Assembly (NCBI GenBank): GCA_014379585.1
Contig: JACMLN010000169.1
Coordinates: 1-42,510 of the forward strand
Origin: Gloeobacterales cyanobacterium ES-bin-313
GTDB lineage: Bacteria > Cyanobacteriota > Cyanobacteriia > Gloeobacterales > Gloeobacteraceae
Reading direction: 5' to 3'
Length of the DNA stretch: 42,510 bases
Positions 2,811 to 42,444 of this stretch are shown here, piece by piece. A model generated the notes under the pieces. That model was not told the DNA's origin. It saw only the letters and a list, made by a program, of their open reading frames with translations, and did not search any database. The translations under genes were made by a program, and so were the position numbers. How positions within the stretch are numbered: position 1 is the stretch's first letter; each line of letters starts with the position of its first letter.

Positions 2811-3191
2811 TTACCCGAAAGGCACACCTAGCCGTTCTAGAAGTGTGATGAGGGTATCTAAGCTAACGGGTTTGTAAATTACGTCATCCACTCCTGCTTC
2901 AAGACAGATCTCGCGAGTGCATCTCATCAGATCCGCAGTCACAGCAGCAATGGGTATGCGGCATTGTGGTTCGCTCATCTGCCGGATAAGCCGAGTCGTC
3001 TCAAATCCGTCAGGTGGAGGCATTCGTATATCCATCAGAACCATCTCAAAATCAGTCGTTTCAAGAGCGGCTAAGGCTTCAAGGCCAGATTCAACTGCCA
3101 AAGCACAATACCCAAGGCGTGCAAACTGCATAACGGACACTTGACGGCTGATGGAATGATCGTCAACGATTAAGATCACGAGATTGCCCAT
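2811..3191 (-). CDS. Single-domain response regulator 1 (receiver only)
   Basis: A 126-residue stand-alone CheY-like receiver. The acidic pocket is D10 and D11, and the phospho-acceptor is D54 in VLMDIRMPPPDG. T85 (AAVTA) and K107 (IYKPVS) complete the conserved set, so the domain should be phosphorylatable. There is no output domain, so it must act through a partner or as a phosphotransfer intermediate. The spacing MPPPDGFETTRLIRQMSEP is nearly identical in receiver 2 (3932-4303), which shows recent duplication. It lies upstream of the Crp-like gene on the same strand, with about 105 nt between them, so the two may be co-transcribed. No histidine kinase is in the window. Confidence 0.9.
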   Translation of the reverse strand: MGNLVILIVDDHSISRQVSVMQFARLGYCALAVESGLEALAALETTDFEMVLMDIRMPPPDGFETTRLIRQMSEPQCRIPIAAVTADLMRCTREICLEAGVDDVIYKPVSLDTLITLLERLGVPFG

Positions 3192-3931: not shown

Positions 3932-4303
3932 TCACCCGAGAGCAAGACCAAGATTTTTTAAAAGTGTGGTGAGAATGCCCAAACTTACGGGTTTGACGAT
4001 CAGATCGTTCATCCCAGCTTCAAGGCATTGTGCACGGGTAAAAGTCAGAACACCGGCTGTCACACCAGCAACGGGTATATGACATTTTGGTTCGCTCATC
4101 TGCCGGATCAGTCTGGTTGTTTCAAAGCCATCGGGTGGAGGCATCCGCACATCCATGAGCACCATGTCAAATTCATGATCATCTTCGATTAAAGCCAGAG
4201 CCTCAAGACCCGAAGCGACTGCCAAGGCAGGATATCCAAGCCGTGCGAACTGCAGAACGAATACACGGCGACTGGAGGGGTCATCATCGACGATAAGGAT
4301 CAT
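3932..4303 (-). CDS. Single-domain response regulator 2 (receiver only)
   Basis: A 123-residue receiver and close paralogue of receiver 1. The acidic residues are in LIVDDD, the phospho-acceptor is in VLMDVRMPPPDG, the conserved Thr is in AGVTAG and the Lys is in IVKPVS. I chose the ATG at 4303 (MILIVDDDPSS) because beta-strand 1 of the receiver fold begins there. An upstream in-frame ATG at 4381 would add 26 residues with no family support. A GGGA sequence lies about 9 nt upstream of 4303. The fold is complete and probably active. Like receiver 1 it lacks an output domain and is followed by a copy of the dispersed element, so gene and element were probably duplicated together. Confidence 0.87.
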   Translation of the reverse strand: MILIVDDDPSSRRVFVLQFARLGYPALAVASGLEALALIEDDHEFDMVLMDVRMPPPDGFETTRLIRQMSEPKCHIPVAGVTAGVLTFTRAQCLEAGMNDLIVKPVSLGILTTLLKNLGLALG

Positions 4304-4456
4304 AGGAATTTCCCAGACGGAAGAGAGGTTCTCTCTAGATCTTCCTTCGCGCCCAAATCCCATAGATAAAGTTAATAACAAGGTTTAGACTTAATTCAGT
4401 GAGATGCAGGGATTTTTCTCAAAGCTACTGTCAATGTCAATGCTGGCATTCTATTG

Positions 4457-5720: not shown

Positions 5721-6236
5721 CTAAATCTCCGTTTCTCTGAGTGCTAGCTCATAGGTCTCGTAGATCTCATCGCTGAAACAGCAGAAGATGATCTTTTCAG
5801 GTAGAGCGTTTCCACCAAGAAAAAACAGAGATTCAACTAGGGCAACTCTTGTGGCTTGGTCGATTGGGTACTTGTAGATCCCGCAACTGATTGCTGGAAA
5901 AGCGATTGTCCTGATCCCGTTCTCCTGAGCTAACTTCAGGCTTTCTCTGTAGCAACTTGCGAGCAACTCCTCTTCGTTGTTGTTGCCGCCGTTCCAGACT
6001 GGCCCGACGGAATGGATGATGTACCTGGCAAACAAGTTGTAGCCACTGGTGATTTTTGATTGTCCGGTTTTGCATCCACTGAGCAATCGGCATTCATGAA
6101 CAAGTTCTGGGCCTGCTGCTCTGTGAATTGCTCCGTCTACTCCACCGCCACCTAGCAAAGAGCTATTCGCAGCATTGACGATAGCATCGACCCGTTGGAG
6201 GGTGATGTCACCTTTGACTATTTCTATTCGTTTCAT
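5721..6236 (-). CDS. Macrodomain protein, probable O-acetyl-ADP-ribose deacetylase
   Basis: A complete 171-residue macrodomain of the YmdB/MacroD type, which hydrolyses O-acetyl-ADP-ribose or removes ADP-ribose from proteins. Adenine- and ribose-binding motifs are clear: GDIT near residue 9, [20 protein letters not shown] at 16-35 with the conserved Asn and Asp, and IHRAAGP. The phosphate loop region is HSVGPVW, and ISCGIYKYP is near residue 117. Length and motif order match the stand-alone bacterial family. No SD is obvious before the ATG (the preceding sequence is CCCCCC). There is no adjacent ADP-ribosyltransferase or sirtuin to suggest a toxin-antitoxin pair. Confidence 0.9.
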
Positions 6237-6546: not shown

Positions 6547-8112
6547 CTATGCTTGCTGATCGGAGGACTGCCGGAATATGGGCAGATAGTAGCTCGCTCC
6601 GTAAACCATCAAGGCAATTCCTGTGAGTGTTGCGTTGATCACTTGCTCGTAGCTATTGAGGTTCCAAAGCTGAACCGTCGCTAGTTGCCCGAACGCAATA
6701 GTAGCAAGAAGCAAGCTAATCCGGTTCCAGTAGTTTTCTCGACTCAGCGCATAACGTAGACGCATTCCCGCTGCAGTAATGGTCACAGTCGTCGATGCAA
6801 ACATGCCATCTTGCAACAAGCATGATTCCAGTACTCCCAAGCTGGCAAGCAGTGTGGAGAGTATGCGAATTGACCAAAGTTCGACGGGGTGGATACCGCC
6901 TTCTGATGGCTGGGTCAGCTTAAAATCTACTCCTTGGGCAAAGCAACCGACGACTAGTAGCGCAAACAGATGCAGCACATTGGGTGTTTCAAAGAGGATG
7001 CTGGGCAATGCAAGAAGCAGAGTAGTTCCTAAGTGAGCCAGGCTAATGCGGCGCACGAAGTTTTTTTCGCTCGTCCGGTCTAGCAACACGCTCCAACCGA
7101 CAGCTAATAAGGCTGCGGTCAACATCGGAGCTTCCAAACTTTGCAAGTACAACCCGATGGCAGTGCTCAGTGCGCCACCGCTCAACAACCAGTAGCAATA
7201 GCGACGAACGGAACCCCGTTGTGCTTTGTATACAAAGCCTCGCAACCAAAGCAATCCAGCACAGGTTAACCAAGCTAAAGCGTTTTCACTAGGTGCATTG
7301 GCAAAGAACATGTAACTACAACCACTTACTGCCGCAGTTAATGCACTCAAGTTAGCAACCACTGGCGCTAACTGTTCAGATTTTTCAAGGTTAAAGTCTA
7401 TAGCTAAGGCGATGGAGAAAGCGGTGATCATGAACGTCACAGCACTGAGTAAATTGTCGCTAGCAACAGAGGGTTGTAGAAACAAATAGCCGTACATACC
7501 CCACAAAGCACCAGCATTAATCAGAGGCACTCCCCGACTTGAGAAACGACGGCTGACAAACATGCCGACAATACCCAAAATGCTGATACCGACAAGAGAC
7601 GCGGAACCCATCGGTGCAAGTGCTACACCCCCTAAACAGGCTAAGTTTGCAAAGGCTGCCAAGTAAGATGATTCGTACCGAACCGCTGCAAAGTAAATAC
7701 CAAGACCCGCAACAATCACTAGCCCTAGATGAAAAAGTGGAAGCTGCGTGAAGACGGCAATCGGTTCAAAAGTTCCTGCTCCATAGACAATCAGCCACAG
7801 CCCACTGATTGCACCAGCCCGCAGGATATCGCGCCACCCTGACAAAAGGTTGCGTCGCATCAGCCAGTCTGCTCCTAGCCAATTCCCAATGAGTAGAAGT
7901 GCCATACTACTGAGACGAATCCAGGGATTATTGAAATACACACCTAGGTCAATTTGACGTGCAAGAATCGACGCAATTGTGATGCACAGCAAAAAAGCAC
8001 CACCGCTTGTAATCACTTGACCTGTAAGGCTGCGTTCCTCTTGTGTTGTCTGGCCAGACCAAACTCTTTCTAAAAACGCCTGCGTATCCTTTAGCTTCTC
8101 GAAGATATCCAT
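6547..8112 (-). CDS. Multi-pass membrane protein, DUF2339/DUF2157-like
   Basis: A 521-residue integral membrane protein with a short soluble N-terminus (MDIFEKLKDTQAFLERVWSG) and more than a dozen hydrophobic segments in close succession. It resembles large uncharacterised bacterial membrane proteins of the DUF2157/DUF2339 type, but no diagnostic motif was recognised and no function can be stated. I chose the ATG at 8112 because GGAGG precedes it by 5 nt. The frame extends to 8277, but that extension overlaps a duplicated leader with a hairpin (8121-8134) and would place about 55 non-hydrophobic residues before the domain. The gene has its own terminator, so it is probably monocistronic. Confidence 0.82.
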   Translation of the reverse strand: MDIFEKLKDTQAFLERVWSGQTTQEERSLTGQVITSGGAFLLCITIASILARQIDLGVYFNNPWIRLSSMALLLIGNWLGADWLMRRNLLSGWRDILRAGAISGLWLIVYGAGTFEPIAVFTQLPLFHLGLVIVAGLGIYFAAVRYESSYLAAFANLACLGGVALAPMGSASLVGISILGIVGMFVSRRFSSRGVPLINAGALWGMYGYLFLQPSVASDNLLSAVTFMITAFSIALAIDFNLEKSEQLAPVVANLSALTAAVSGCSYMFFANAPSENALAWLTCAGLLWLRGFVYKAQRGSVRRYCYWLLSGGALSTAIGLYLQSLEAPMLTAALLAVGWSVLLDRTSEKNFVRRISLAHLGTTLLLALPSILFETPNVLHLFALLVVGCFAQGVDFKLTQPSEGGIHPVELWSIRILSTLLASLGVLESCLLQDGMFASTTVTITAAGMRLRYALSRENYWNRISLLLATIAFGQLATVQLWNLNSYEQVINATLTGIALMVYGASYYLPIFRQSSDQQA

Positions 8113-8255
8113 ATTGCCTCCAGGCTTGTGCCTGTAAATGTTGATGCGTCCATATTCCCGACAGTGAATCTGTATATGCGAGGAGTATCTTCTGTGAAAC
8201 TGATAGGAGACGTATGACCCTGAATTCGCATGAAGTAGGGTGAAGTAAAATCGTC
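8113..8255 (-). promoter_or_regulatory. Duplicated leader, copy 1, with hairpin next to the SD
   Basis: This region matches 8923-9058 in several blocks in the same order. On the minus strand the shared blocks are a CTTCACC-type direct repeat near the 5' end, then ACTCCTCGCATATACAGA, then a hairpin ending beside the SD. The hairpin here is CAGGC-ACAA-GCCTG (8121-8134), 8 nt from the ATG. The other copy has TAGGC-AAAA-GCCTA, so the outer base pair changes from C-G to T-A with pairing kept. Confidence 0.6.
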
Positions 8256-8330
8256 CTGTCTGTTGATTTAAAGTCAATTCCTAATCTTTAAAACTTACTG
8301 AAAGAATAGAAGATGAATTGCTTGCATCGA

Positions 8331-8367
8331 AGAAACCCCCGATCACTCTAGGCAGGCAGTGATCGGG
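8331..8367 (-). terminator. Hairpin terminator after the small membrane-protein gene
   Basis: A perfect 10-bp stem (CCCGATCACT at 8338-8347, AGTGATCGGG at 8358-8367) with a 10-nt loop. On the minus strand it is followed by GGTTTCTTC, a weak T-rich tail. It lies about 85 nt after the stop at 8452 and separates that gene from the leader of the next. Confidence 0.6.
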
Positions 8368-8451
8368 AGCATATTGTTGGGTTCTCTAACAAACTTGAAG
8401 GGAAGAGGGGATTACTTGAGTGTGTAGAGTTTTGAATTTTTATTCATTCAT

Positions 8452-8922
8452 TCAGTAGCATCGTGGAGCAAATGCAATGGAGAGTATGACATAGACAGGT
8501 ATCGAAAATACCATGTAGAGAAGGTTAAAAAGAAACACATTGCACGCGGAGTTTTTCCCCAGTCCACTTGGTGAAAGAGTAGTTTTTATGGGCAATTCCT
8601 GTCGATATTTAATGTACCAACAACCAGCAAGGATGAGTATAGTTATACTAACAAGAAAGCCAATGCCCAAAAAGATAACATCAAGATGTTGGCTTGGTGG
8701 ACATGCTGCTCCAAAAAACATGATCGGTTTTTTGGGTTCGAGCATCACTGCAGCAACGATACATAACCACGGTATAGCTGAAAAACGCAATAAATATTGA
8801 GCCAGTGTGGAGTTGGATATTTTAAATCCAAGTACGATGGAGCAAGCAGATAACACTATAATCATCGCGAAAATAACGAGCAAAAACAGTTCGTTCCATC
8901 CATCAGAATGACCAAAAAACAT
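8452..8922 (-). CDS. Hypothetical small membrane protein
   Basis: A 156-residue protein with about four hydrophobic segments (approximately residues 11-32, 43-62, 78-106 and 135-152). Three cysteines lie in or near the loops (ACPPSQH near residue 74, and the C-terminal APRCY). I do not recognise the family. The ATG at 8922 is supported by AGAGG 5-6 nt upstream. Its leader (8923-9058) is a diverged copy of the leader of the next minus-strand gene, so the two membrane proteins are probably under the same control although a terminator separates them. It is divergent from the gene at 9063. Confidence 0.65.
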   Translation of the reverse strand: MFFGHSDGWNELFLLVIFAMIIVLSACSIVLGFKISNSTLAQYLLRFSAIPWLCIVAAVMLEPKKPIMFFGAACPPSQHLDVIFLGIGFLVSITILILAGCWYIKYRQELPIKTTLSPSGLGKNSACNVFLFNLLYMVFSIPVYVILSIAFAPRCY

Positions 8923-9058
8923 ATTGACCTCTAGGCTTTTGCCTATAGCTGTTGATGCACCTATACTCCCGTTAGTGCTTCTGTATATGCGAGGAGTACT
9001 GACTATAGTGCTGTGGGAATGTGAATATCTCTGAACCAGGGTGAAGCAAGGTGAAGTA
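8923..9058 (-). promoter_or_regulatory. Duplicated leader, copy 2, with hairpin next to the SD
   Basis: This is the counterpart of 8113-8255. The hairpin TAGGC-AAAA-GCCTA is at 8932-8945, 9 nt before the ATG at 8922. Two CTTCACC-type half sites one helical turn apart lie near 9036-9056 on the minus strand and are also present in copy 1. That arrangement would suit a direct-repeat-binding response regulator. The region also has to hold the promoter of the divergent gene at 9063. Confidence 0.6.
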
Positions 9059-9062
9059 GAAT

Positions 9063-10151
9063 ATGATCGTCATGGATGTAAATGCATTCTGTAAGGATAT
9101 GGCTACACCTGTTCCGCAACGTTTTGGCCCCGATGTGCTTGACCAGTGGTTTCCCTTGGCGGAGCAGCGTGAATACACCGCTCTTTGGATGGGCAAGGTC
9201 GGTTTAACCCGCCGTCGGGCAGAATGTTTTGTGAGGTTGTGGGGATATTTATCTCTGAAGCAAGTCTTAGAACAAAATCCCCATCTCAAACCACCGATGG
9301 GCGAACTTATCCCAGTGGAGCAGTGGGTTTCTTGTAGCCTCCGCGAGGCAGCAGCTCTGTTCTATGCAGATAAAGATCAAGGTAGCGAACGTGCGGCGGG
9401 ATTGATGATCGATAAGCTCGTCGATTTAGAGCTTTTGCAGAAGTTTTTTGATGGGAATGTCACCTGTTTTCAAGTCGCACCTCAGATTGAAGTAACCCCT
9501 GCAGAGACACCAAGCACTTCTACTTTGTACTGCGATGATTTCGACCCACGCTCTGATGCAATCTCTGTAGCCCAAATGCTCGCTCGCAATTACAACTGGA
9601 TGAACCGTAGTGATAACGCCGCTACCCTCAGGATCACACGGTTGCTACGAGAGTGGGCGGAGCAGTACAAAACTGGAATGCGGGTGTTACGCCTGCAAGA
9701 CAGTCAGCAGGCAGTTGGCTTTTATTTACTCTATCCGACCGATCCTGACTCGGAGGGTTGTTTTTTCAACCCCCCAGCCAAAAGCTTACACCTCGGATTT
9801 GGTGCGGAGGTTGACCCAATCAAGATGGCCAAACCTGGTGATAAGCAGTGTCGCGGCGTCTTAGTGCGCAGTTGGGTGATCGATACACCCTATTTGGAAC
9901 AGGGGCGAGTACCCTTTTTGATCGATATCCAGAATGTATTACAGCAAATGCTGCTCGATTTTCCAATGCTCAGTGACTTGCACACGATGATCATTCATCC
10001 CTCCTACGAAAAGATGGCAATCGTAATGGGCTTTCAACGCACAGGGGCAAAATCTGCAAGCTCGCTGTATTGGATGTACTTGCCGCTTACTCGCTACCTT
10101 GCGCTTGATTTAGATACTCTATTCGCAGCCAAATTTACTGAACTGCATTGA
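9063..10151 (+). CDS. Hypothetical protein with possible C-terminal GNAT-like domain
   Basis: A 362-residue soluble protein. The N-terminal ~140 residues are helical (LTRRRAECFVRLWGYLSLKQ, then SLREAAALFYADKD) and could form a helix-turn-helix unit. A linker rich in Pro and Thr follows. Residues ~185-345 alternate strand and helix in a way that recalls GNAT acyltransferases (VLRLQDSQQAVGFYLLYP; a late segment IIHPSYEKMAIVMGFQRTGA resembles the GNAT motif B end). The acetyl-CoA loop is not clear, so the call is weak. A second ATG at 9072 is equally possible as the start; neither has a good SD. The gene is divergent from the minus-strand membrane-protein gene, with 140 bp between them. Confidence 0.6.
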   Translation: MIVMDVNAFCKDMATPVPQRFGPDVLDQWFPLAEQREYTALWMGKVGLTRRRAECFVRLWGYLSLKQVLEQNPHLKPPMGELIPVEQWVSCSLREAAALFYADKDQGSERAAGLMIDKLVDLELLQKFFDGNVTCFQVAPQIEVTPAETPSTSTLYCDDFDPRSDAISVAQMLARNYNWMNRSDNAATLRITRLLREWAEQYKTGMRVLRLQDSQQAVGFYLLYPTDPDSEGCFFNPPAKSLHLGFGAEVDPIKMAKPGDKQCRGVLVRSWVIDTPYLEQGRVPFLIDIQNVLQQMLLDFPMLSDLHTMIIHPSYEKMAIVMGFQRTGAKSASSLYWMYLPLTRYLALDLDTLFAAKFTELH

Positions 10152-13874: not shown

Positions 13875-16049
13875 TCATGGAGAGGGATTTTGGGTGCCTA
13901 TAGGCTTAAAAGTTGCTGTACCTGCTGGAGTTGTGACGCTAATAATTTTGATCATTTCTCCACTCATCAAAATAGCGTTGATTTGGGTATTAGAGTTTAC
14001 AAAAAATAAGCGCGCAGCGATACCGTCGATCATGACTGAGGTCGCTCCCAGCAAGTTGTTACCACTGATGCTGACAGCTTGGGAAAATGGAGCGTCCACA
14101 ATTGCCAAACTCGAAATCGTCGGTCGCGAAGGAACAGCTAAGTTAGGGTTACTTGTAACCGAGGTATCAGGGGTGATATCAGGGTTATACAACTCCGCAC
14201 TGCTGAAAGAAGTGACCCCAGTCAAGAATGCAATGATGTCGTTTCCTCCAACCACCAGAACTTTGCCGTTCTTTAGTAATGTTGCTGTGTGTCTTGCCCG
14301 ATTCTTGCTCATAGAGGCAGTGATAGTCCAAGCGTCAGTTGTTGGGTCGTATAACTCTGCACTGCTTAAATAGCTAACACCGCCCATGCTTTTGCTGTTA
14401 AAGATGCCTCCCCCGGTGACAAGAACCTTTCCACTAGTCAGCAATGTAGCAACTTGACCAAACCTAGGGGTCATCATAGAGCTAGTAGCACTCCAAGTGC
14501 CAGTTTGTAGGTTGTATACCTCTGCACCATTAGAAGAGATGCTGTTATTGTATCTACCTACTATCAAAACTTTGCCATTGCCCAGTAACGTCGCTGTATG
14601 TCCCCACCTAGTTTCGTTCATCGAGACAGTTGTGTTCCACATGTTTGTTGCTGGGTCGTATAACTCCGCACTGCTTAAATCAACTGGGGTTCCGATTTTG
14701 CCACCATTGTTTTGTCCTCCTGCGATGAGCACCTTACCATTTGCTAGCAAAGTTGATGTATGACGGAAGCGAGGAGTTTTCATAGAGGCAGTTGCCGTCC
14801 ACATGCCAGTTTGCGGGTTGTAGATCTCAGAACTGTCCAAGTCAACTGAGCCTGCTCCCCCAGCTATAAACTCCTTGCTGCCAAATACGGTATTTCTGCG
14901 TCCTCCTGTCACAAGGAGTTTACCGTTGGATAGTAACGAGGCTGCGTGCCCCCACCTTGGCGTAGCCATTGAGCCAGTAACGCTCCAAGTTCCTGTAGAT
15001 GAGTCATACAGCTCTGCACTTCCATTGTCAAACCCACCTACAACAAGCACCTTGCCATTATTCAATAATGTCGCTGTATGTTCATGAACCATGGACATGG
15101 AGCCAGTGTTTGTCCAAGTACCAGTCTGAGGGCTGTAGATTTCTGCACTCTTTTGATAACTGCTGCTATTTTGTCCCCCTACCACCAGAACTGTGCCATT
15201 CGGCAACAAGGTCGCCGTGTGGAATTCTCTGCCCTTGCCTAGTTCACCTGTAGCTGACCAAGTTGGATCCACTACGAGTGGGTAGCGTAATCCTTCAGGA
15301 TCTACCGTCAAACGCAAACGCTTGCCTCCTTCGAGTAACTGCAAGTGGACTGCTGAATCACTGCGCCGCCCGCTGCTATCTACTAACCAGGGTCGCTCGA
15401 TAAGTACACCCCTACCCTGAGCGTCTAGAAATGCGACTCCGCGCCCGATAGAATGCATCTGAACTCCCTGCCCTACCCGCACTCGATAGTCAAAGACCCT
15501 CGGGGCAGTGCTATTTCGTAGATACAAAAATTCTTCGCTCCTGCCTAAGTTGACAACTTGAAGGCTATCAGTGCTTGGATAGGCATTTTTATAGACAAGC
15601 GTTTTACCCTGTAGTTCGGCTTTTGATGTTGATGATCCAAGTGGTTGCACCTCGATCCTCACTGCTCCTCGTTCCACAACAATGGAGCCGTTGTAATGCT
15701 TTGGTAAGAATAGTTGCAGCTTGCATCTTTTAGCCATGGACAGCCACGCCTCTTGCTCAGGAGGCTTTAGTCCTGTTGGATGATGAATATCACTGAACGC
15801 TGTTGCTGCAAGCCCTGCGACTGTTTGCTTATCGAAGCGTCGTGTAGTTTGGGTCCACGATACTACACCTTGTAATTGCTGACGAAGGCTTGGGAATTGT
15901 CTAGCAAGGGTACAGATAAGGCAATCTGTTCGAACGTTATCAGAGAATTGATCCGTGAGGGTAGCTGAACGTAGAGGCGCCAGATCCATGAAGACGATGA
16001 GCAAAGCAGAAATCAGACTTAACCATCGCCACGAAAGGGTAGAAATCAT
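13875..16049 (-). CDS. Kelch-repeat surface protein K1 (7 Kelch units, one IPT domain)
   Basis: A 724-residue exported protein of the four-member Kelch family. The signal peptide is MISTLSWRWLSLISALLIVF..., then DCLICTLARQFPSLRQQL with the conserved Cys-x2-Cys. A beta-rich module follows with [35 protein letters not shown] and LRYPLVVDPTW. From about residue 268, seven Kelch units of ~50 residues ([28 protein letters not shown]) would form one propeller. A C-terminal IPT/TIG-like domain begins near PTISSLAIVDAP. The SD GGAG lies 7 nt before the ATG. The 5' leader resembles that of K2 for about 190 nt. The stop overlaps a downstream ATG (ATGA). The ligand is unknown; Kelch propellers usually bind protein or carbohydrate. 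Confidence 0.9.
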   Translation of the reverse strand: MISTLSWRWLSLISALLIVFMDLAPLRSATLTDQFSDNVRTDCLICTLARQFPSLRQQLQGVVSWTQTTRRFDKQTVAGLAATAFSDIHHPTGLKPPEQEAWLSMAKRCKLQLFLPKHYNGSIVVERGAVRIEVQPLGSSTSKAELQGKTLVYKNAYPSTDSLQVVNLGRSEEFLYLRNSTAPRVFDYRVRVGQGVQMHSIGRGVAFLDAQGRGVLIERPWLVDSSGRRSDSAVHLQLLEGGKRLRLTVDPEGLRYPLVVDPTWSATGELGKGREFHTATLLPNGTVLVVGGQNSSSYQKSAEIYSPQTGTWTNTGSMSMVHEHTATLLNNGKVLVVGGFDNGSAELYDSSTGTWSVTGSMATPRWGHAASLLSNGKLLVTGGRRNTVFGSKEFIAGGAGSVDLDSSEIYNPQTGMWTATASMKTPRFRHTSTLLANGKVLIAGGQNNGGKIGTPVDLSSAELYDPATNMWNTTVSMNETRWGHTATLLGNGKVLIVGRYNNSISSNGAEVYNLQTGTWSATSSMMTPRFGQVATLLTSGKVLVTGGGIFNSKSMGGVSYLSSAELYDPTTDAWTITASMSKNRARHTATLLKNGKVLVVGGNDIIAFLTGVTSFSSAELYNPDITPDTSVTSNPNLAVPSRPTISSLAIVDAPFSQAVSISGNNLLGATSVMIDGIAARLFFVNSNTQINAILMSGEMIKIISVTTPAGTATFKPIGTQNPSP

Positions 16050-18602: not shown

Positions 18603-21437
18603 ATGTTCTTTTCCCTCTCACGCCGCTGGTTCAGCCTCTTTGCTACTTTGGTTATTGTTCTTGCAAACTTGACGCCTCTAGGTGCTGCTGCCTTCATAAA
18701 CTCGGTGCCCAAAAGGGGAGCAGCAGATTGCCTGAGCTGTTTGCTTGCTGAACAATTTCCTGGGCTTCGCCAACAATTGCAAGGGGAGATGCCATGGAAG
18801 GTGGTCAAACAGCGCTTCGGCAAGCGCATGGCTGTAGGATTTACGACAACACTTGCGACCAGCATACAACCACCAAAAGATTTGCAGCCGCTTGAAAAAC
18901 AAGCGTGGATGGCTATGACTGAGCGGAAGCAGCTGAAACTGTTTATGCCACGGCAATACAACCATTCCACTATCGTTGAAATGGGGGCGATTCGGCTGGA
19001 AGTAAAGCCCATTGGAGCACAGTCAGTTAGAGCTGAGCTTCAGGGAAAGGTTCTCGTCTACAAGAATGCCTTTCCAAACACCGATAGTCTTCAGGTCGTT
19101 AAGCAGGGTAAGAGCGAAGAATTTTTGTACCTGCGCAACAAGACCGCGCCGAGAGTTTTCGACTACCGGGTACAGGTAGGACAGGGAGTACATGTGCAAT
19201 CTGTGGCAGGCGGCGTTGCATTTTTAGACAGCCACGGCAAGGGGGTACGTATCGAGCGGCCTTGGTTGATCGACAGTACAGGACAACGTAGTGAATCGGC
19301 AGTGCATTGGCAGGTTCTAGAGAAAGGAAAGCATCTTCGGTTAGTAGTCGAGCCTGAGGGATTGCACTATCCGCTGTTGGTGGACCCCACTTGGACCACC
19401 ACTGCTTCTCTCAGTACACCTAGGGCAGGTCACACAGCCACTTTATTGCCCAACAGCAAGGTGCTTGTGGTCGGGGGAAGCAACAGCAGCACTTTAAGCA
19501 GTGCAGAGGTGTACGACCCATCGACAGGTATTTGGAATACGACAGGCTCGATGAGCATAGGGAGATACGGTCACACAGCCACACTGCTAAAAAATGGCAA
19601 GGTTCTGGTAGCAGGAGGAAGAGACAGCGACGCTGTCTCAAGCAGTGCAGAGGTGTACGACCCATCGACAGGTATTTGGAATACAACAGGCTTATTGAGT
19701 GCAGCTCGGTACGCTCACACAGCGACATTACTACCAAATGGCAAAGTCCTGGTTGCAGGAGGAGGAATCGGCGGAAATAGCTTCAGCAGCGCGGAGTTGT
19801 ACAACCCATCGACAGGTACTTGGAGCAACACTACTTCCATGAGTACGCTCAGGGAATCTCACACATCAACCTTATTGAAAAATGGCAAGGTGCTTGTTGT
19901 AGGCGGCAGCTTCTACCGGAACGACGATGGTGGTGGTGCCACTTGGGGCGGTTTGAGCAGTGCGGAGTTGTATGACCCAGCAATAGGCACCTGGAGCGAC
20001 ACTGGTTCCATGAGGACAGTGAGATACGGTCACAAAGCAACGTTATTGAACAATGGTAAGGTTCTCGTGGCGGGGGGACTCGATGTCAGTGGGTTAAGCA
20101 GTGCTGAGCTGTACACACCTGAGACTGGAGTATGGAGCACCACAGGTTCCATGAGTTTAGCAAGGTACGACCACACAGCCACCTTATTAAAAAATGGCAA
20201 GGTTCTCGTTGTAGGAAACGCCTCTGACTACAACAGTACAAACAGTGCAGAATTGTACGATCCTGCAACAGGTCTGTGGCTCAGAACTGCCACCATGATC
20301 GTGCCGAGATCCAGTCACACAGCAACATTACTGAAAAGTGGCAAGGTGCTTGTGGTAGGGGGAGGCGACGGCAGTAGCATTTTAAGCAGTACGGAATTGT
20401 TCTCCCCATTGGCTCGGACCTGGAGTGCCACGAGTTTCATGACCTCAGCTAGGGTGTACCATACAGCGACTTTATTGCTGAATGGAAAGGTTCTAGTAAC
20501 GGGTGGCTTTAACTTCAACATCGGTGGTAGCGGCAATTTGAGTAGTGCAGAATTGTACGATCCGATAACTGGTATCTGGAACACCACAGGCTCCATGAAC
20601 GCAACCAGATACATTCACACAGCCACATTACTCCCAAATGGCAAGGTGCTTGTGACGGGAGGAGTAAGTAGCAACACGAGTGCGGCAGAGTTGTACGATC
20701 CAGCAGTGGGCACTTGGACTTATACATCCTCTATGATTACGAATAGGGAAGGTCACACAGCCACATTACTCCCAAATGGCAAGGTGCTTGTGGTTGGAGG
20801 CAACGTCGGGGAATTGAGCACTGCTGAATTGTACGATGCAACAACAGGTGTATGGAGTAGTACGGGATCCCTTAACACCGTAAGGTACTTTTTCACAGCA
20901 ACCTTATTGAAAAATGGCAAGGTGTTGGTGACAGGAGGACAAAATGGCCTCAGTATTTTCAGTAGTGCGCAAGTGTATGATCCGGCTTTAGGTACTTGGA
21001 GCGATACTGCTTCCATGAATACGGACAGGTCAGGTCACAAAGCAACGTTACTGGCAAATGGCAAGGTACTTGTTTCAGGGGGCTACAACGACAGCGAAAC
21101 TTTGAGCAGTGCAGAAGTATACGATCCAGTTGCGGGCACTTGGAGCACCACAGGTTCCATGAGTACAGTTAGGGAATCTCACACATTAACCTTATTAAAA
21201 AATGGCAAGGTGCTTGTCGCAGGGGGAAGAGGTGATAGTACCGGTACTACAGAGTTGTATGACCCAATAACAGGGACTTGGGGTAGCACTTCTCCCCTGT
21301 TTGTGCTTCGGTACTCGCAAACGGCCACGTTGCTAAAAAACGGCAATGTCCTTTTAGCGGGGGGCGACGGCGGTAGCGATGGTGGCGAACTGGACAGTGC
21401 TGAGATATACGGCTTATTGAGTGTTTCTCCTCCATAG
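18603..21437 (+). CDS. Kelch-repeat surface protein K2 (14 Kelch units)
   Basis: A 944-residue exported protein. The signal peptide ([20 protein letters not shown]...) is followed by [18 protein letters not shown] with the conserved Cys pair. The N-terminal module is shared with the paralogues ([50 protein letters not shown]). From about residue 262, fourteen Kelch units of 46-53 residues run to the end, enough for two seven-bladed propellers. There is no C-terminal IPT domain; the protein simply ends [13 protein letters not shown]. Units 1-2 share a 45-nt block that is identical at 19496-19540 and 19640-19684, a sign of recent unit duplication. AGGAG precedes the ATG. The gene is bracketed by direct repeats at 17921 and 21731. 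Confidence 0.92.
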
Positions 21438-21978: not shown

Positions 21979-23740
21979 GCTGTTGGCGAATTCAACAAGG
22001 GCTGAACATTTTTGTTTCTGGCAATAATTTAGGCTACTACTCCGAGTAATTTTGGAGAGCTTGCCATGTCTTTGCAACCCCAGCCTGTTAACCCCGTCCC
22101 GCTTCAGGCTGCCAAAATTGCCAAAGCTGCTTTTCCAAAGGGCAATACGTTCATGCTCTTGCGTGACAAACTCGGCACCCTCTTCACGAATGAAGACTTC
22201 GCGCAGTTGTTTGCCTCCAGAGGACAGCCAGCTTTGTCCCCGTGGCAGCTCGCTTTTGTCACGTTGATGCAATTTGCTGAGGGATTAACAGACCGACAAG
22301 CCGCAGATGCAGTTCGCGCCCGACTTGACTGGAAGTATGCTCTGTCATTGGAATTGACTGACTCTGGCTTCCATTACTCGGTGCTCAGCGAATTTCGTGA
22401 CCGCCTAGCTGGGGACTCTCCAGAAAATCTATTGCTTGACCGATTGCTGGAGGTTTGCCGAGAACAGGGATGGTTGCGCAACCGTGCCAAGCAACGCACG
22501 ACTCCACCCATATTCAAACTGCGGTGCGCACCCTCAACCGCTTGGAAATGGTGGGTGAAACCCTACGCTCGGTACTCAACATCTTGGCGATGGCTGCTCC
22601 GGATTGGCTGCGTACGGTGATCGCTCCCGATTGGTTTGATCGCTACAGTGTGCGAGTGGAAACCTACCGCCTTCCTGCCTCAGACCGTGAGCGAACTAGT
22701 CTAGCTGAGTGTATCGGAGCCGATGGTTACCGTCTACTGGAGACCATCTATGATGACCCATCGGCTCCAGACTGGTTACGGCAATTGACTGCTATGGAGT
22801 TCCTGCGCCAGATGTGGATTCAACAGTTCCATGCCGAATCTGGATGGGTAGTCTATTGGAGGGATCTAAAAGATTCGCCTCCCACTGCGCAATCGCTCCA
22901 TTCTCCCTACGACCCAGATTGCCGTTTTGGCAACAAGCGTTCCACACAATGGGTTGGCTACAAAGTTCATGTGAGCGAAACCTGCCAGCCGGATAGTCCA
23001 CACCTGATCACCCATATCGAAACCACGACAGCCACAAGCAGTGATAACTTGGTGCTTAACAAAATTCACGGTGCTCTCGCTCAGAAGGAATGTCTACCCG
23101 GGGAACATCTTGTGGATACAGGCTACACCTCGGCAGAGCAACTGGTTAGTTGTCAAGCTGGGTACGGTGTCGAACTGATTAGCCCAGTAAGAGCGGATCT
23201 CAGTTGGCAGGCCAAAGCCAATCAGGGTTTCGATGCGACGGCGTTTGAGATTGATTGGCACAACCAAACTGCACGCTGTCCGGCAGGCCAAACCAGCACC
23301 AAGTGGAAGCTTGGTCAGGATGACCATGGTAATCCTCACATCAAGATTCTATTTCGGCAAAAGACCTGCACAGGCTGCGACTTTGCCCCAGACTGCACTC
23401 GGGATAAAACGGGACGTTCTATCACTGTGCACCCACAGGTCGAACATGAGGCGTTGCAACAAGCAGGAGCCAACCAGAAGACGGAAGCCTTCCGTCAAGA
23501 ATATGTGCTACGAGCAGGGGTAGAAGGAACGATTGCTCAGGCAGTGCAAGCATTTGAGATGCGTCGGTGTCGGTATCGAGGTCTTGTAAAAACGCATCTT
23601 CAACAAGTAATCACGGCGACAGCAATAAACTGGGTGCGGATTGCGGATTGTCTGATGGGAGAGCCATTTGCCCGAACGCGCACTTCCCACTTTGCTGCGC
23701 TGGCTGACAGTGCCTAGAGGCTGCTGAATTCGCCAACAGC
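21979..23740 (+). mobile_element. IS1182-family-like insertion sequence (about 1.76 kb)
   Basis: Terminal inverted repeats are GCTGTTGGCGAATTCAACA at 21979-21997 and its complement at 23722-23740, 18 of 19 matching. They enclose one transposase reading region. Length, terminal arrangement and the transposase type fit IS1182. The 4-5 bases outside the ends (ACGAA on the left, GTCAG on the right) do not match, so no target duplication is visible. The element is inactive because its transposase is frameshifted. Confidence 0.8.
22066..23717 (+). pseudogene. IS1182-family DDE transposase, frameshifted
   Basis: The first frame, from the ATG at 22066 (SD GGAGAG), reads VNPVPLQAAKIAKAAFPKGN, then LSPWQLAFVTLMQFAEGLTD, and stays homologous until KQRT near base 22500. 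The protein then continues in the next frame as DSTHIQTAVRTLNRLEMVGE to TAG at 23717. A single missing base at about 22500 (ACG-AC instead of ACG-GAC) explains this exactly. The break falls at the first catalytic Asp (the family's TDST motif). The later DTGYTSAEQL and the RAGVEGTIAQA region, which carry the other acidic residues, are intact. No slippery sequence is present at the break, so programmed frameshifting is unlikely. The full protein would have about 550 residues. Confidence 0.88.
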
Positions 23741-31070: not shown

Positions 31071-34000
31071 CTATGGGGTAACAGTGAACTTGGTCGGGCT
31101 TGTGTTGAAGCCATTGGGAGTGATCACAACGATTGCCCCACTCCTTGCTCCAGCAGGGACAACGGCTTGAATTTGGCTATCGGAGAGCACAGTGAAGAGG
31201 GCCGAAGTGGTGCGGAATCGCACATTAGTCGTACCAGTGAAGTTTGTGCCGTCGATAGTGACTGTAGTTCCTACAGGGCCGCTCGTCGGGCTGAAGCTCG
31301 TGATGGTTGGTGGGTTGTTAAGTACAGTCAGGCTATTTGTACTGGTGGCACTACCCGTAGGAGTATTGATAGTAATTGGGCCACTAGTCGCCCCAGTTGG
31401 CACTTGCAGATTGACTTGACTGTCTGAGACATACCCGAAGCTAGCACTGAGACCATTCACATTCACTGAGGTGACACCCGTGAAGCCTGAGCCTGTGAGT
31501 GTGACAATCGAACCGACAGCGGCACTCGCGGGACTAAAGCTGGTAATGGCTGGCGCGTTCAGGCCGTATAGTTCCGCACTGCTTTCGTAGCCGCCGATGT
31601 TGCCATTAAATCCCGCTGCTACAAGGAGTGCACCATTGGGCAATAGTGTTGCTGTATGATCGAATCTAGCTTTGTTTAAGGAGCCGGTATTGCTCCATTT
31701 ACCACTTTGCGGATCAAATAACTCAGCACTGCTGAAAGAGGAAAAAACGATATCTCTTCCTCCTGCTATGAGGACTGTGCCATTAGGTAGCAATGTTGCT
31801 GTATGTTGGCTTCTTGCCGTATTCATGGAGCCAGTGGTTGACCAAGTTCCAGTTGATGAATCGTACAGCTCGGCGCTGCTTAAAGGGAAATTACCGCTAT
31901 TTCCCCCTCCTGCGACAATAACTGCTCCACTAAGAAGCATTGTTGCTGTATGTTCAGATCGAGCTATGCTCATCGAGCCAGTGACACTCCAAGCACCAGT
32001 CTGTGGGTCGTACAGCTCTGCACTGCTAATGGTGAAGCCTCCCGCAACAAGAACTTTACCATTTTGTAGCAATGTGGCTGTGTGGAGATATCGAGCCGTT
32101 GTCAAGGAGCCAGTGGTACTCCAGGTACTTGTTGAAGGGTCGTACAACTCCGCAATGCTCAAATAGCCATTGCTGTTTTGTCCCCCCGCCACAAGAACCT
32201 TGCCATTTTTAAGCAACGTCGCTGTGTGACCGCTCCTAGGTGTTGATAGGGAGTTTACGGTGCCCCAGATGCCTGTTGCTGGATCGTACAATTCTGCACT
32301 AGTTAATGCTGCGTTGTTATTTAATCCCCCAGTCACAAGAACTTTACCACTGGACAACAATGTTGCTGTATGAAAAGACCTAGGCGTAGACATTGAGTTT
32401 GTGGTGCTCCATGTGCCTAATAACGGGTCGTACAATTCTGCACTAGTTGATGCTGTGTTGTTATTGAATCCCCCAGTCACCAGCACCTTGCCATTTTGCA
32501 GCAAAGTCGCCGTATGCTTCTGCCTTGCGGTGCCTAGGTTGCCAGTGGTTGTCCAAGTACCTGTTGTCGGTGGATCGTACAACTCTGCACTGCTGGTAGT
32601 AGTGCTGCTGCTGGTAGATCCCCCCGCGATAAGAACTTTGCCATTGGACAAAAAGGTCGCTGTGTGATTTGCCCTAGCTGTGTTCATGGAGCTAGTGAGA
32701 CTCCAAGTTCCTACTATTGGGTCGTACAATTCAGCACTGTTTAAGTAGCTGCTACTCAAGCCTAATACCCCGCCTGCCACAAGAACTTGGCCATTCGGTA
32801 ACAGCGTCGCTGTGTGATCTGTCCTAGTTACGTTTAGGAAGCCAGTGCTGCTCCAAGTGCCAGTTTGCGGGTCATATAGCTCTGCACTGCTATCACTGTT
32901 GTTATTGAGTCCCGCTGCAACGAGAACCTTACCATTGGTCAATAACGTTGCCGTATGACGCCACCTGGCCGTATTTAGAGAACCAGTGGTCACCCAAGTC
33001 CCTGACTGCGGGTCGTACAACTCAGCAGTGTTACCGTTGACGAATCCCCCTGCCACAAGAACTTGGCCATTATTCAGCAATGTCGCCGTGTGAACTGATC
33101 TAGCCGTGCTCATGGAGCCAGCGGTATTCCAAGTTCCTGTTGTCGGGTCGTACAACTCCGCACTGCTCAGATAGATGCCAACAATATTGATGTTAAATCC
33201 CCCTGTAACGAGTACCTTGCCATCGGGCAGTAGCGTCTCCGTCTGAAGTGCTCTGGCCGTGGCCATTGAGCCAGTGGTGCTCCAGGTACTTGTTGAAGGG
33301 TCGTACAACTCCGCACTGCTCAAAAAGCCATTGCTGTTTTGTCCCCCCGCGACGAGAACCTTGCCACTAGGCAGCAACGTCGCTGTGTGTTCACTTCTGG
33401 CTGTAGACATTGAGCCAGTATTGCTCCAGGTGCCAGAACTTGGGTCGTACAAGTCTGCACTGTTGCCAGATCCCCCTGCGACAAGGACTTTGCCATTGGG
33501 CAGCAATGTTGCTGTGTGGTCTTGCCTAGCTGCTGTCATTGAGCCAGTAGTCGTCCAAGAAGGGTCAACGACCAGCGGATAGCGCAATCCTTGAGTCTTG
33601 ACCACCAAGCGTAAATGCTTGCCGCCTTCAAGAATTTGCCAATGCACTGCCGATTCACTGCGTTGACCATTGCTGTCCACCAACCAGGGCTTTTCAATGC
33701 GTAATCCCTGGCTTCGACTATCAACAAACGCAATACTGCCACCCTCAGACCGTACTTGCACGCCTTCTCCTAGCTGCACCTTGTAATCGAATACCCTTGG
33801 TGCTTTGCTGTTGCGTAAGTACAAAAATTCTTCGCTTTTGCCTCGTTGGACAACCTGAAGGCTATCGGTGTTGGGGTAGGCATTTTTATAGACAAGCGTT
33901 TTGCCCTGTTGTTCAGCTTTGACCGACTGTGCTCCAAGGGGCAGCACTTCTACTCGTACTGCTCCTTGTTCAACGATAGTGGTACCGGAGTAGCGTTGTG

Positions 34001-34352
34001 GCAAGAACAATTGCATCTTCCCTCGTGCAGCCATCGCTAGCCATGCCTGTTGCTCAAGAGGCTTCAGTCCTACTGGTGTTTGGCTAGCGGTAGAAGAAGC
34101 TACCGCAGCCAGTCCTGTGACGGTTCGCTTGTCAAAATGTCGAGTGGTGACAGTCCAGGGCACCTCTCCTTCTAGTTGTTGGTGCAGGGATGGAAATTGC
34201 TCTGCTAGCGAACAACTAAGACAATCACCTTTCACCTCTACTGAGAACTGGGTAGTAGTAAAGGCAGCAGCACTCGAAGGCATGAGGTCAATGAAGACCA
34301 ACAGCAAAATGCTCAATAGACTGAAGCAGCGACGCGAAAGGGTAGAGAACAT
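31071..34352 (-). CDS. Kelch-repeat surface protein K3 (14 Kelch units, two IPT domains)
   Basis: A 1093-residue exported protein and the largest member of the family. The signal peptide (MFSTLSRRCFSLLSILLLVF...) precedes DCLSCSLAEQFPSLHQQL with the Cys pair. The shared module ([50 protein letters not shown]) runs to about residue 267. Fourteen Kelch units ([23 protein letters not shown]) follow, then two IPT/TIG domains (APAITSFSPASAAVGSIVTL and PPTITSFSPTSGPVGTTVTI). The start is fixed by alignment with the other three paralogues; only a weak TGAG precedes it. The leader resembles that of K4. It is probably co-transcribed with the PEP-CTERM gene downstream. Confidence 0.92.
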   Translation of the reverse strand: MFSTLSRRCFSLLSILLLVFIDLMPSSAAAFTTTQFSVEVKGDCLSCSLAEQFPSLHQQLEGEVPWTVTTRHFDKRTVTGLAAVASSTASQTPVGLKPLEQQAWLAMAARGKMQLFLPQRYSGTTIVEQGAVRVEVLPLGAQSVKAEQQGKTLVYKNAYPNTDSLQVVQRGKSEEFLYLRNSKAPRVFDYKVQLGEGVQVRSEGGSIAFVDSRSQGLRIEKPWLVDSNGQRSESAVHWQILEGGKHLRLVVKTQGLRYPLVVDPSWTTTGSMTAARQDHTATLLPNGKVLVAGGSGNSADLYDPSSGTWSNTGSMSTARSEHTATLLPSGKVLVAGGQNSNGFLSSAELYDPSTSTWSTTGSMATARALQTETLLPDGKVLVTGGFNINIVGIYLSSAELYDPTTGTWNTAGSMSTARSVHTATLLNNGQVLVAGGFVNGNTAELYDPQSGTWVTTGSLNTARWRHTATLLTNGKVLVAAGLNNNSDSSAELYDPQTGTWSSTGFLNVTRTDHTATLLPNGQVLVAGGVLGLSSSYLNSAELYDPIVGTWSLTSSMNTARANHTATFLSNGKVLIAGGSTSSSTTTSSAELYDPPTTGTWTTTGNLGTARQKHTATLLQNGKVLVTGGFNNNTASTSAELYDPLLGTWSTTNSMSTPRSFHTATLLSSGKVLVTGGLNNNAALTSAELYDPATGIWGTVNSLSTPRSGHTATLLKNGKVLVAGGQNSNGYLSIAELYDPSTSTWSTTGSLTTARYLHTATLLQNGKVLVAGGFTISSAELYDPQTGAWSVTGSMSIARSEHTATMLLSGAVIVAGGGNSGNFPLSSAELYDSSTGTWSTTGSMNTARSQHTATLLPNGTVLIAGGRDIVFSSFSSAELFDPQSGKWSNTGSLNKARFDHTATLLPNGALLVAAGFNGNIGGYESSAELYGLNAPAITSFSPASAAVGSIVTLTGSGFTGVTSVNVNGLSASFGYVSDSQVNLQVPTGATSGPITINTPTGSATSTNSLTVLNNPPTITSFSPTSGPVGTTVTIDGTNFTGTTNVRFRTTSALFTVLSDSQIQAVVPAGARSGAIVVITPNGFNTSPTKFTVTP

Positions 34353-40895: not shown

Positions 40896-41082
40896 GTTTT
40901 ACCGCAGATGTACTCTATAAAACATGGAGAACTGGCTTTCATAAGGTACATTTCTTCTTGACTACTTATTAAGTCTTGCCTTCGTAAAAGTATTGTGCAT
41001 CTTTTTCTCGAACTATCACTTAGATAAGTACTTTTGCCCAACTGCTCTTGTCCTTCTATGCCTTTCTACCCTGAGTTTTGCC

Positions 41083-42444
41083 ATGTGCTCTACCCTTCCT
41101 CGTCGCTGCTTCCGACTGTTCGTTGCACTGCTGATCGTGCTTATGGATTTGATGCCGTTGAGCGCTACTGCTCTCCAAACCCAATTTGCAGTGGCGGTGC
41201 AAGCAGATTGCCTCAGTTGTACCCTTGCCAAGCAATTTCCAGTTCTTCACCCACAACTGCAAGGCGAAGTGAAATGGGAAACTCGGAAACAGCTAATCGG
41301 TAAGCAAACCGTAGTAGGACTTGAGACGACAGTCGCTTCTAGTAATATCCACCCACCCATGGGACTCAAACCCCTAGAGCAACAAGCGTGGATGGCCATG
41401 GCGCAAAGGGAGCAGATGCACCTATTTTTACCCCACACCTACAACGGCAAAACAGTTGTCGAAAAGGGAAAAGTACGGGTGGAAGTGCAGCCTCTTGGAG
41501 CACAGTCGGCACATTCAGAACGACAGGGTATGGCGCTTGTCTACAAGAATGCTTATCCCAACACAGATAGCCTTCAAGTCGTCAAGCAAGGTCAAAGTGA
41601 GGAGTTTTTGTACCTGCGAAATAGCAATTCTCCAAAGGTTTTTGACTACAAGGTGAAAGTCAGCCAAGGAGTACAGATTCGCGCGATGGAAGGCAGTATT
41701 GCGTTTGTAGACAGCCGAGGTCAAGGAGTACGCATCGAGCGACCCTGGTTGGTGGATAGCACTGGCAAACGCAGTGAGACGGCTGTGCATTGGCAGATCC
41801 TTGAGGGAGGAAAGCGCTTGAGGCTGGTAGTGATGCCTTTGGGATTGCGCTATCCGCTGGTCGTGGATCCGTCTTGGACGACTACTGGCCCCATGAATAA
41901 GGCTAGGTACTATCACACAGCATCACTGCTACCTAACAGCAAGGTTCTTGTAACGGGGGGGACAGACTCCGATGGCAACTATTTTAGCAATGCAGAGTTA
42001 TACGACCTAACATCAGTAAGTCTGAGTTACTACCCTCTTCCATCGTGCCGAATTGTTGATACCAGAAACACTGCCTCATCAAACCTGCCTATCGGTAGTC
42101 CAGTGACTTACACAGTCAACCAAGGAGGTGCTACTGTCGACTACAGCTCTCAAGGTGGAAGTGCTTCAGGCTGTGGTATTCCAACTGACGCTAAGGCTGT
42201 CTTCTTCAACTTTGTTGCTGTTAATGCCTCAGGCTCTGGCCATCTCCAAGCTTGGCCTTTTGGTACCTCCATTCCAACTGCCAGCGTTCTGAACTACGCC
42301 AATCTTCCTGGATTCAACATTGCAAATGGTATTGTCTTATCTGTCTGCGATCCATCAGCAACAACTTGCAGCAAAGATTTGAATGTGCAGGCAAATCAAT
42401 CAACCATCAAGTTGGTCGTGGATGTGGTTGGATACTTTAAATAA
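41083..42444 (+). CDS. Chimeric Kelch-family protein K4 (one Kelch unit plus VDVVGYF domain)
   Basis: A 453-residue exported protein. The start at 41083 (MCSTLPRRCFRLFVALLIVL) is set by alignment with K1-K3; the frame extends to 40993. The shared N-terminal module is complete: DCLSCTLAKQFPVLHPQL with the Cys pair, [39 protein letters not shown] and LRYPLVVDPSW. Only one Kelch unit follows (WTTTGPMNKARYYHTASLLP), and directly after the next SNAELYD the sequence changes to SLSYYPLPSCRIVDTRNT. From there to the end (~140 residues) it is a bacterial surface-type domain with the pattern R.VDTR...AVFFNFVAVN...VDVVGYF. The repeat array has thus been replaced, with the junction at a unit boundary. 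The leader resembles that of K3. Confidence 0.88.
   Translation: MCSTLPRRCFRLFVALLIVLMDLMPLSATALQTQFAVAVQADCLSCTLAKQFPVLHPQLQGEVKWETRKQLIGKQTVVGLETTVASSNIHPPMGLKPLEQQAWMAMAQREQMHLFLPHTYNGKTVVEKGKVRVEVQPLGAQSAHSERQGMALVYKNAYPNTDSLQVVKQGQSEEFLYLRNSNSPKVFDYKVKVSQGVQIRAMEGSIAFVDSRGQGVRIERPWLVDSTGKRSETAVHWQILEGGKRLRLVVMPLGLRYPLVVDPSWTTTGPMNKARYYHTASLLPNSKVLVTGGTDSDGNYFSNAELYDLTSVSLSYYPLPSCRIVDTRNTASSNLPIGSPVTYTVNQGGATVDYSSQGGSASGCGIPTDAKAVFFNFVAVNASGSGHLQAWPFGTSIPTASVLNYANLPGFNIANGIVLSVCDPSATTCSKDLNVQANQSTIKLVVDVVGYFK

Follow-up and report, generated by a model that had tools for sequence, protein, structure and literature searches.

Twin leaders of two orphan membrane-protein genes in a Gloeobacterales cyanobacterium are probably copies of a divergent regulatory region bearing a decamer array

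In the 42,510-nucleotide stretch of DNA from Gloeobacterales cyanobacterium ES-bin-313 analyzed here (hereafter the window), two twin blocks of approximately 140 nt were found, each ending exactly at the ATG of a separate orphan membrane gene, gene 1 or gene 2. The explanation that we favor, and regard as probable, is that the two leaders are copies of the divergent regulatory region shared by gene 1 and an uncharacterised gene, X, and that this region works at the DNA level and is not primarily an RNA device. Copy 1 occupies the X–gene 1 interval, and copy 2 precedes gene 2 behind a terminator-like hairpin. The features of the locus, in window positions, are listed below.

9063–10151, plus strand: gene X, a 362-aa ORF of an uncharacterised cyanobacterial family, divergent to gene 1
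8452–8922, minus strand: gene 1, encoding an orphan 156-aa protein with 4 hydrophobic segments
6547–8112, minus strand: gene 2, encoding an orphan 521-aa membrane protein with about 10 hydrophobic segments
9032–9056, plus strand: array 1, which forms the distal end of leader 1 and precedes gene X; three TGAAG/TGAAC repeats recurring every 10 bp (reading CTTCA on the minus strand)
8221–8245, plus strand: array 2, the same kind of array at the distal end of leader 2, with no adjoining X
8999–9031, minus strand: 33-nt spacer of leader 1, largely diverged in sequence
8188–8220, minus strand: 33-nt spacer of leader 2
8980–8998, minus strand: identical 19-mer TACTCCTCGCATATACAGA of leader 1
8169–8187, minus strand: identical 19-mer TACTCCTCGCATATACAGA of leader 2
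8950–8958, minus strand: identical GCATCAACA of leader 1
8139–8147, minus strand: identical GCATCAACA of leader 2
8932–8945, minus strand: 5-bp hairpin of leader 1, outer pair T-A, loop AAAA
8121–8134, minus strand: 5-bp hairpin of leader 2, outer pair C-G, loop ACAA
8331–8370, minus strand: terminator-like hairpin that separates gene 1 from leader 2 and is followed by a T-rich tail, proposed from sequence and fold

An earlier note on this DNA had described the leaders as matching in ordered blocks, and this was confirmed by a gapless alignment in which 89 of 129 nt are identical (40 differences), followed by a 1-nt indel and then CAATATG, with the start codons at 8922 (gene 1) and 8112 (gene 2). 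The local alignment score was 57, compared with a maximum of 18 among 200 shuffles. Upstream, the homology reaches to about 9062 in leader 1 and 8251 in leader 2 and thus fills the whole gap from the gene 1 ATG to the first in-frame ATG of X, while downstream it stops sharply at both start codons. When the comparison of leader 2 was continued into the start of X, P was 0.30 over 80 nt; a value of 0.01 was found for a 32/30-nt stretch that was picked after seeing the data.

The differences between the two leaders are clustered. Identical positions make up 18/25 of the CTTCA region, 13/33 of the spacer, 19/19 of the 19-mer, 13/21 of the segment that follows, 9/9 of GCATCAACA and 17/22 of the segment of the hairpin and the Shine–Dalgarno sequence (SD); the longest identical run is 19 nt (P = 0.02), and the minimum over all 33-nt windows falls on the spacer (permutation P = 0.001 versus uniform divergence). 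Composition alone predicts about 8.4 identities in the 33 spacer positions, and 13 were observed, with the spacer length equal in both copies. Conservation is higher in the ATG-proximal 78 nt than in the spacer. The blocks had also been read as open in a common frame, from which a leader peptide or a relic of one ancestral gene had been proposed, and neither suggestion found support: the differences by codon position are 12/12/16, which gives no coding signal, the other two frames yield 18 and 19 identical residues against 23 of 41 here, and the proposed frame is interrupted by a stop in leader 1.

The upstream signal common to both genes that the earlier note had suspected was supported, and its 5′ blocks proved to be a repeat array that is conserved before X in many cyanobacteria. 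A covariance model built from both leaders (R1) had matches directly before X at 6 of the 9 distant orthologue loci (E-values 6e-4 to 0.03), and these covered the CTTCA array only, which indicates that the array belongs to X. We define the X-upstream set as 70 regions, 69 derived from X matches (60 retrieved by position, 9 as loci) plus that of this genome, from which fragments, second copies per genome and some lower-ranked matches were left out. Three TGAAG repeats with a period of 10 and a score of at least 12/15 were found in 54 of these regions, so that three or more direct repeats stand in helical register, compared with 1.2 regions expected from shuffles and 1/70 in the opposite-strand control; control periods of 7, 8, 9, 11, 12, 13 and 14 yielded 1, 6, 1, 2, 1, 4 and 1 regions, respectively. 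Array 1 matches at 14 of the 15 positions. A two-repeat pattern gave 37 matches versus 37 in its control and is thus uninformative until the third repeat is added. An iteratively refined profile, with the consensus GAAG-N6-GAAGTAG-NN-TGAAGTAGGGTGAAGTTTTT, recovered the array in 58/70 regions, frequently accompanied by one more repeat, the fourth, and by a T-run, and left 12/70 without an array in the 540 nt examined. The array-bearing genomes come from at least 15 families besides that of this genome (family labels matched by hand), and since related genomes are non-independent, the counts overstate the number of independent observations. Titles and abstract openings retrieved in a literature search contained no description of the array.

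The specificity of the array was assessed with a second model (R2), trained on 46 of the 58 array-bearing regions, all from other genomes; near-duplicates, some weak sites and the region of this genome were left out. In this genome, array 1 ranked first (22.1 bits, E = 6.8e-4) and array 2 second (18.7 bits, E = 0.0079), and the third match had an E-value of 0.298. Within the window, the two copies scored 23.9 and 19.1, compared with 4.6 for the next best site and a shuffle maximum of 15.2. The R2 search took in 19 genomes, and because sites of 11 of the 19 were already in the model, their X matches are top by construction; what this test shows independently is only how the two copies in this genome rank and that stronger sites are absent elsewhere. 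Eleven other genomes searched have both X and the array; in 10 of them, the X site was the top match and no other site scored equally high.

The exception, G276, has a stronger site (E = 2.9e-5) and a third one (0.007) over the start of another ORF. The stronger site is a strong four-repeat array outside X (G276:C1:1585633-1585669), upstream of a small secreted-looking protein, which the same regulator may also control. In G221, a weaker second site (E = 0.011, G221:C2:1843529-1843567) precedes the gene of a large multi-pass membrane protein and is oriented towards it as leader 2 is towards gene 2; the two membrane proteins are unrelated (E = 0.65). In G161, which has X without the array, and in six genomes where X was not found, the best E-values were 0.045 to 0.81.

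Matches to X were found in 100 of 291 genomes of the class, that of ES-bin-313 included, and within its own family in 1 of 5 relatives, as a fragment (G002) that sits at a contig edge behind unrelated upstream sequence and was left out as a comparison. Full-length homologues align from residues 8–36, most from about residue 20, and for this reason the true start of X is probably codon 13, at position 9099, which would make the interval between the true starts somewhat longer than drawn. Searches of Pfam, NCBIfam, PADLOC and PDB returned no credible family for X, and its single-sequence structure model had a mean pLDDT of 40 and was set aside. By eye, the alignment of X suggests a winged helix in the N-terminal part and a GNAT enzyme in the C-terminal part; the family and structure searches gave no backing for a DNA-binding character.

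The two genes behind the leaders were confirmed to be unrelated to each other: the comparisons made found no resemblance beyond chance at either the protein or the DNA level (BLASTP E = 0.59 between the two proteins). No relatives of gene 1 were found in the 290 other genomes of the class, and none of gene 2 in these genomes, in a collection of genome contigs or in plasmids. The terminator-like hairpin at 8331–8370, for which the automatic terminator scan has no minus-strand entry, suggests that gene 2 is a separate unit. Elsewhere in the window, two neighbouring receiver-domain proteins (2811–3191 and 3932–4381, minus strand) are clearly paralogous by eye and have similar upstream regions (score 28 versus a shuffle maximum of 14), and four kelch-like paralogues with similar N-termini (13875–16049, 18603–21437, 31071–34352 and 40993–42444) have upstream regions that are alike in pairs (scores 38 and 30 versus shuffle maxima of 15 and 14). 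The window also contains a putative transposase-like gene as two overlapping ORFs in different frames (22066–23717, plus strand) and a stand-alone macro-domain protein (5721–6236, minus strand; Pfam E = 1.3e-47).

At the opposite end of the leaders, the hairpin described before each ATG is present, 8 nt away in leader 2 and 9 nt away in leader 1, and its outer pair is indeed compensatory, C-G in leader 2 versus T-A in leader 1. It adjoins the SD GAGG at 8928–8931 in leader 1 and the GAGG at 8117–8120 in leader 2, with predicted pair probabilities of 0.89–1.0 and 0.98–1.0, respectively. When alignment columns were permuted, 26% of the permutations retained a 5-bp hairpin with a 3–8 nt loop, and 9% retained one together with a compensatory change; the covariation amounts to a single pair in two sequences, with no third copy. 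The fold energies had z scores of −0.37 and −0.36 against shuffles, that is, the leaders are no more stable than their composition predicts, and the window gave no Rfam match at gathering scores. The pairing of CTCCTC with the SD had been suggested for both leaders; of the two predicted folds, only that of leader 2 contains it. On these grounds, an RNA control element with a covarying hairpin is not established, and the RNA-element reading is weak. The hairpin may help to hold the SD region open or make the mRNA more stable, and we infer that it is part of a translation-initiation context common to both genes; nothing found here points to switching.

Further copies of the leader, which the earlier note had thought worth searching for, did not emerge. 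In the 4.26-Mb assembly, R1 matched only the two leaders, and in 5 genomes of the same family it gave no leader match. With up to 3 mismatches allowed, the 19-mer shortened by its final base matched three places in this genome: the two leaders and one site within a long ORF resembling an ABC exporter. The hairpin–SD pattern with up to 2 mismatches gave 34 matches in this genome, compared with 13 for the reversed control, and the only zero-mismatch matches among the 34 were the two leaders; of 30 loci inspected, most besides the leaders sit within long ORFs. Across a collection of genome contigs, the 19-mer had one match, in a Syntrophales MAG, with flanks unlike the leader by eye; it had none in viral contigs, and the leader block had none in plasmids. 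As far as searched, everything downstream of the array, the hairpin included, is private to this genome.

Under the favored explanation, the array would be a DNA operator with its repeats one turn apart on one helix face, and in many relatives its last repeat would lie at the −35 position of the X promoter. Of 57 sites, 14 have a TATAAT-like hexamer 17–19 nt past the last repeat (at exactly 18 in 10 sites), and a second cluster of such hexamers lies near offset 40 (7 at exactly 40). A regulator that binds there would control X; in this genome its control would extend leftwards to genes 1 and 2 across the fixed 33-nt spacer, whose limited identity with retained length fits selection on phasing. 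Duplication of the X–gene 1 intergenic region would have provided gene 2 with a copy of the array and of the start region. The conserved 78 nt beside each ATG would comprise a core promoter and a short 5′ UTR, with the 19-mer as the putative core promoter or transcript start and the hairpin occupying the position just upstream of the SD. Several observations count against this explanation, among them the 12 X-upstream regions without an array and the hexamer cluster near offset 40: a gapless spacer between just two copies may reflect chance or recent ancestry, the better conservation of the downstream 78 nt would also be expected from an RNA element, and the −10 element of X in this genome is poor (GATGTA or TGTAAA by eye). 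The automatic promoter scan found 3 promoter-like sites versus 2.9 in shuffles, and in f28-type relatives the array is close to the X start codon, a different geometry.

That conservation of the 78 nt, together with the stable predicted stem and its one compensatory pair, would suit a cis-acting RNA in which a 78-nt 5′ UTR with an SD-adjacent hairpin is a translational switch for both genes. We consider this unlikely, given that 9% of the column permutations do as well, the fold energies and the Rfam search are unremarkable, the SD pairing differs between the leaders, and neither this genome nor the 5 family relatives hold a third copy. A neutral, recent tandem duplication of the X–gene 1 intergenic region, with the gene 2 copy kept by chance, agrees with the paralogous neighbours that have similar upstream regions elsewhere in the window, which suggest that local duplication is common here; it is quite unlikely in view of the clustering of the differences, shown by both the 19-nt run and the spacer minimum, and of the fact that array 2 still fits a profile derived from other cyanobacteria.

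Descent of genes 1 and 2 themselves from one duplicated gene, with coding parts diverged beyond recognition, appears very improbable: both products are membrane proteins, and the near-background spacer identity allows for an old duplication, but in the comparisons made no similarity above chance connects the two genes, and the homology ends sharply at the start codon. A mobile element or MITE-like repeat was also considered, on account of a short non-coding block in two copies 811 nt apart, and was rejected; multiple dispersed copies were not found in the genome, plasmids gave no match, and the start codons bound the block, so that we attach almost no weight to it.

Arrays of this general design are known. 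The sites of PhoB, TorR and RpaB consist of repeats one helical turn apart, with the last at −35. Like the HLR1 sites of RpaB, the array is built of direct repeats that recur about every 10 bp before cyanobacterial promoters; HLR1 half-sites are TTACA-like, whereas the repeat here is TGAAG, in three to four copies nearly confined to one gene per genome. The Tor boxes (TorR) and Pho boxes (PhoB) of enterobacteria are repeats of 10 or 11 bp bound by OmpR-family activators; they resemble the array as tandem direct repeats beside or over the −35, but differ in sequence, and the target here is an uncharacterised cyanobacterial gene. By analogy, a response regulator is a candidate for binding the array. 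The hairpin, in turn, recalls SD-adjacent leader hairpins and RNA thermometers in having a short stem immediately upstream of the SD, but it barely overlaps the SD, and its covariation is one pair in two sequences.

X is itself a candidate binder, because the array is nearly confined to it. A more specific proposal, that X is a DNA-binding autoregulator with its own decamer array and that a duplicated array region captured two orphan membrane genes, is put forward only tentatively and is on the whole doubtful; if true, it would be a direct example of the recruitment of new genes by copying an existing operator. The comparison also illustrates that covariation stories built on two sequences can mislead. 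What looked like an RNA oddity becomes a testable DNA element before one uncharacterised gene family, and since the array is nearly unique within each genome, it offers a handle on the function of the X family and on its regulator.
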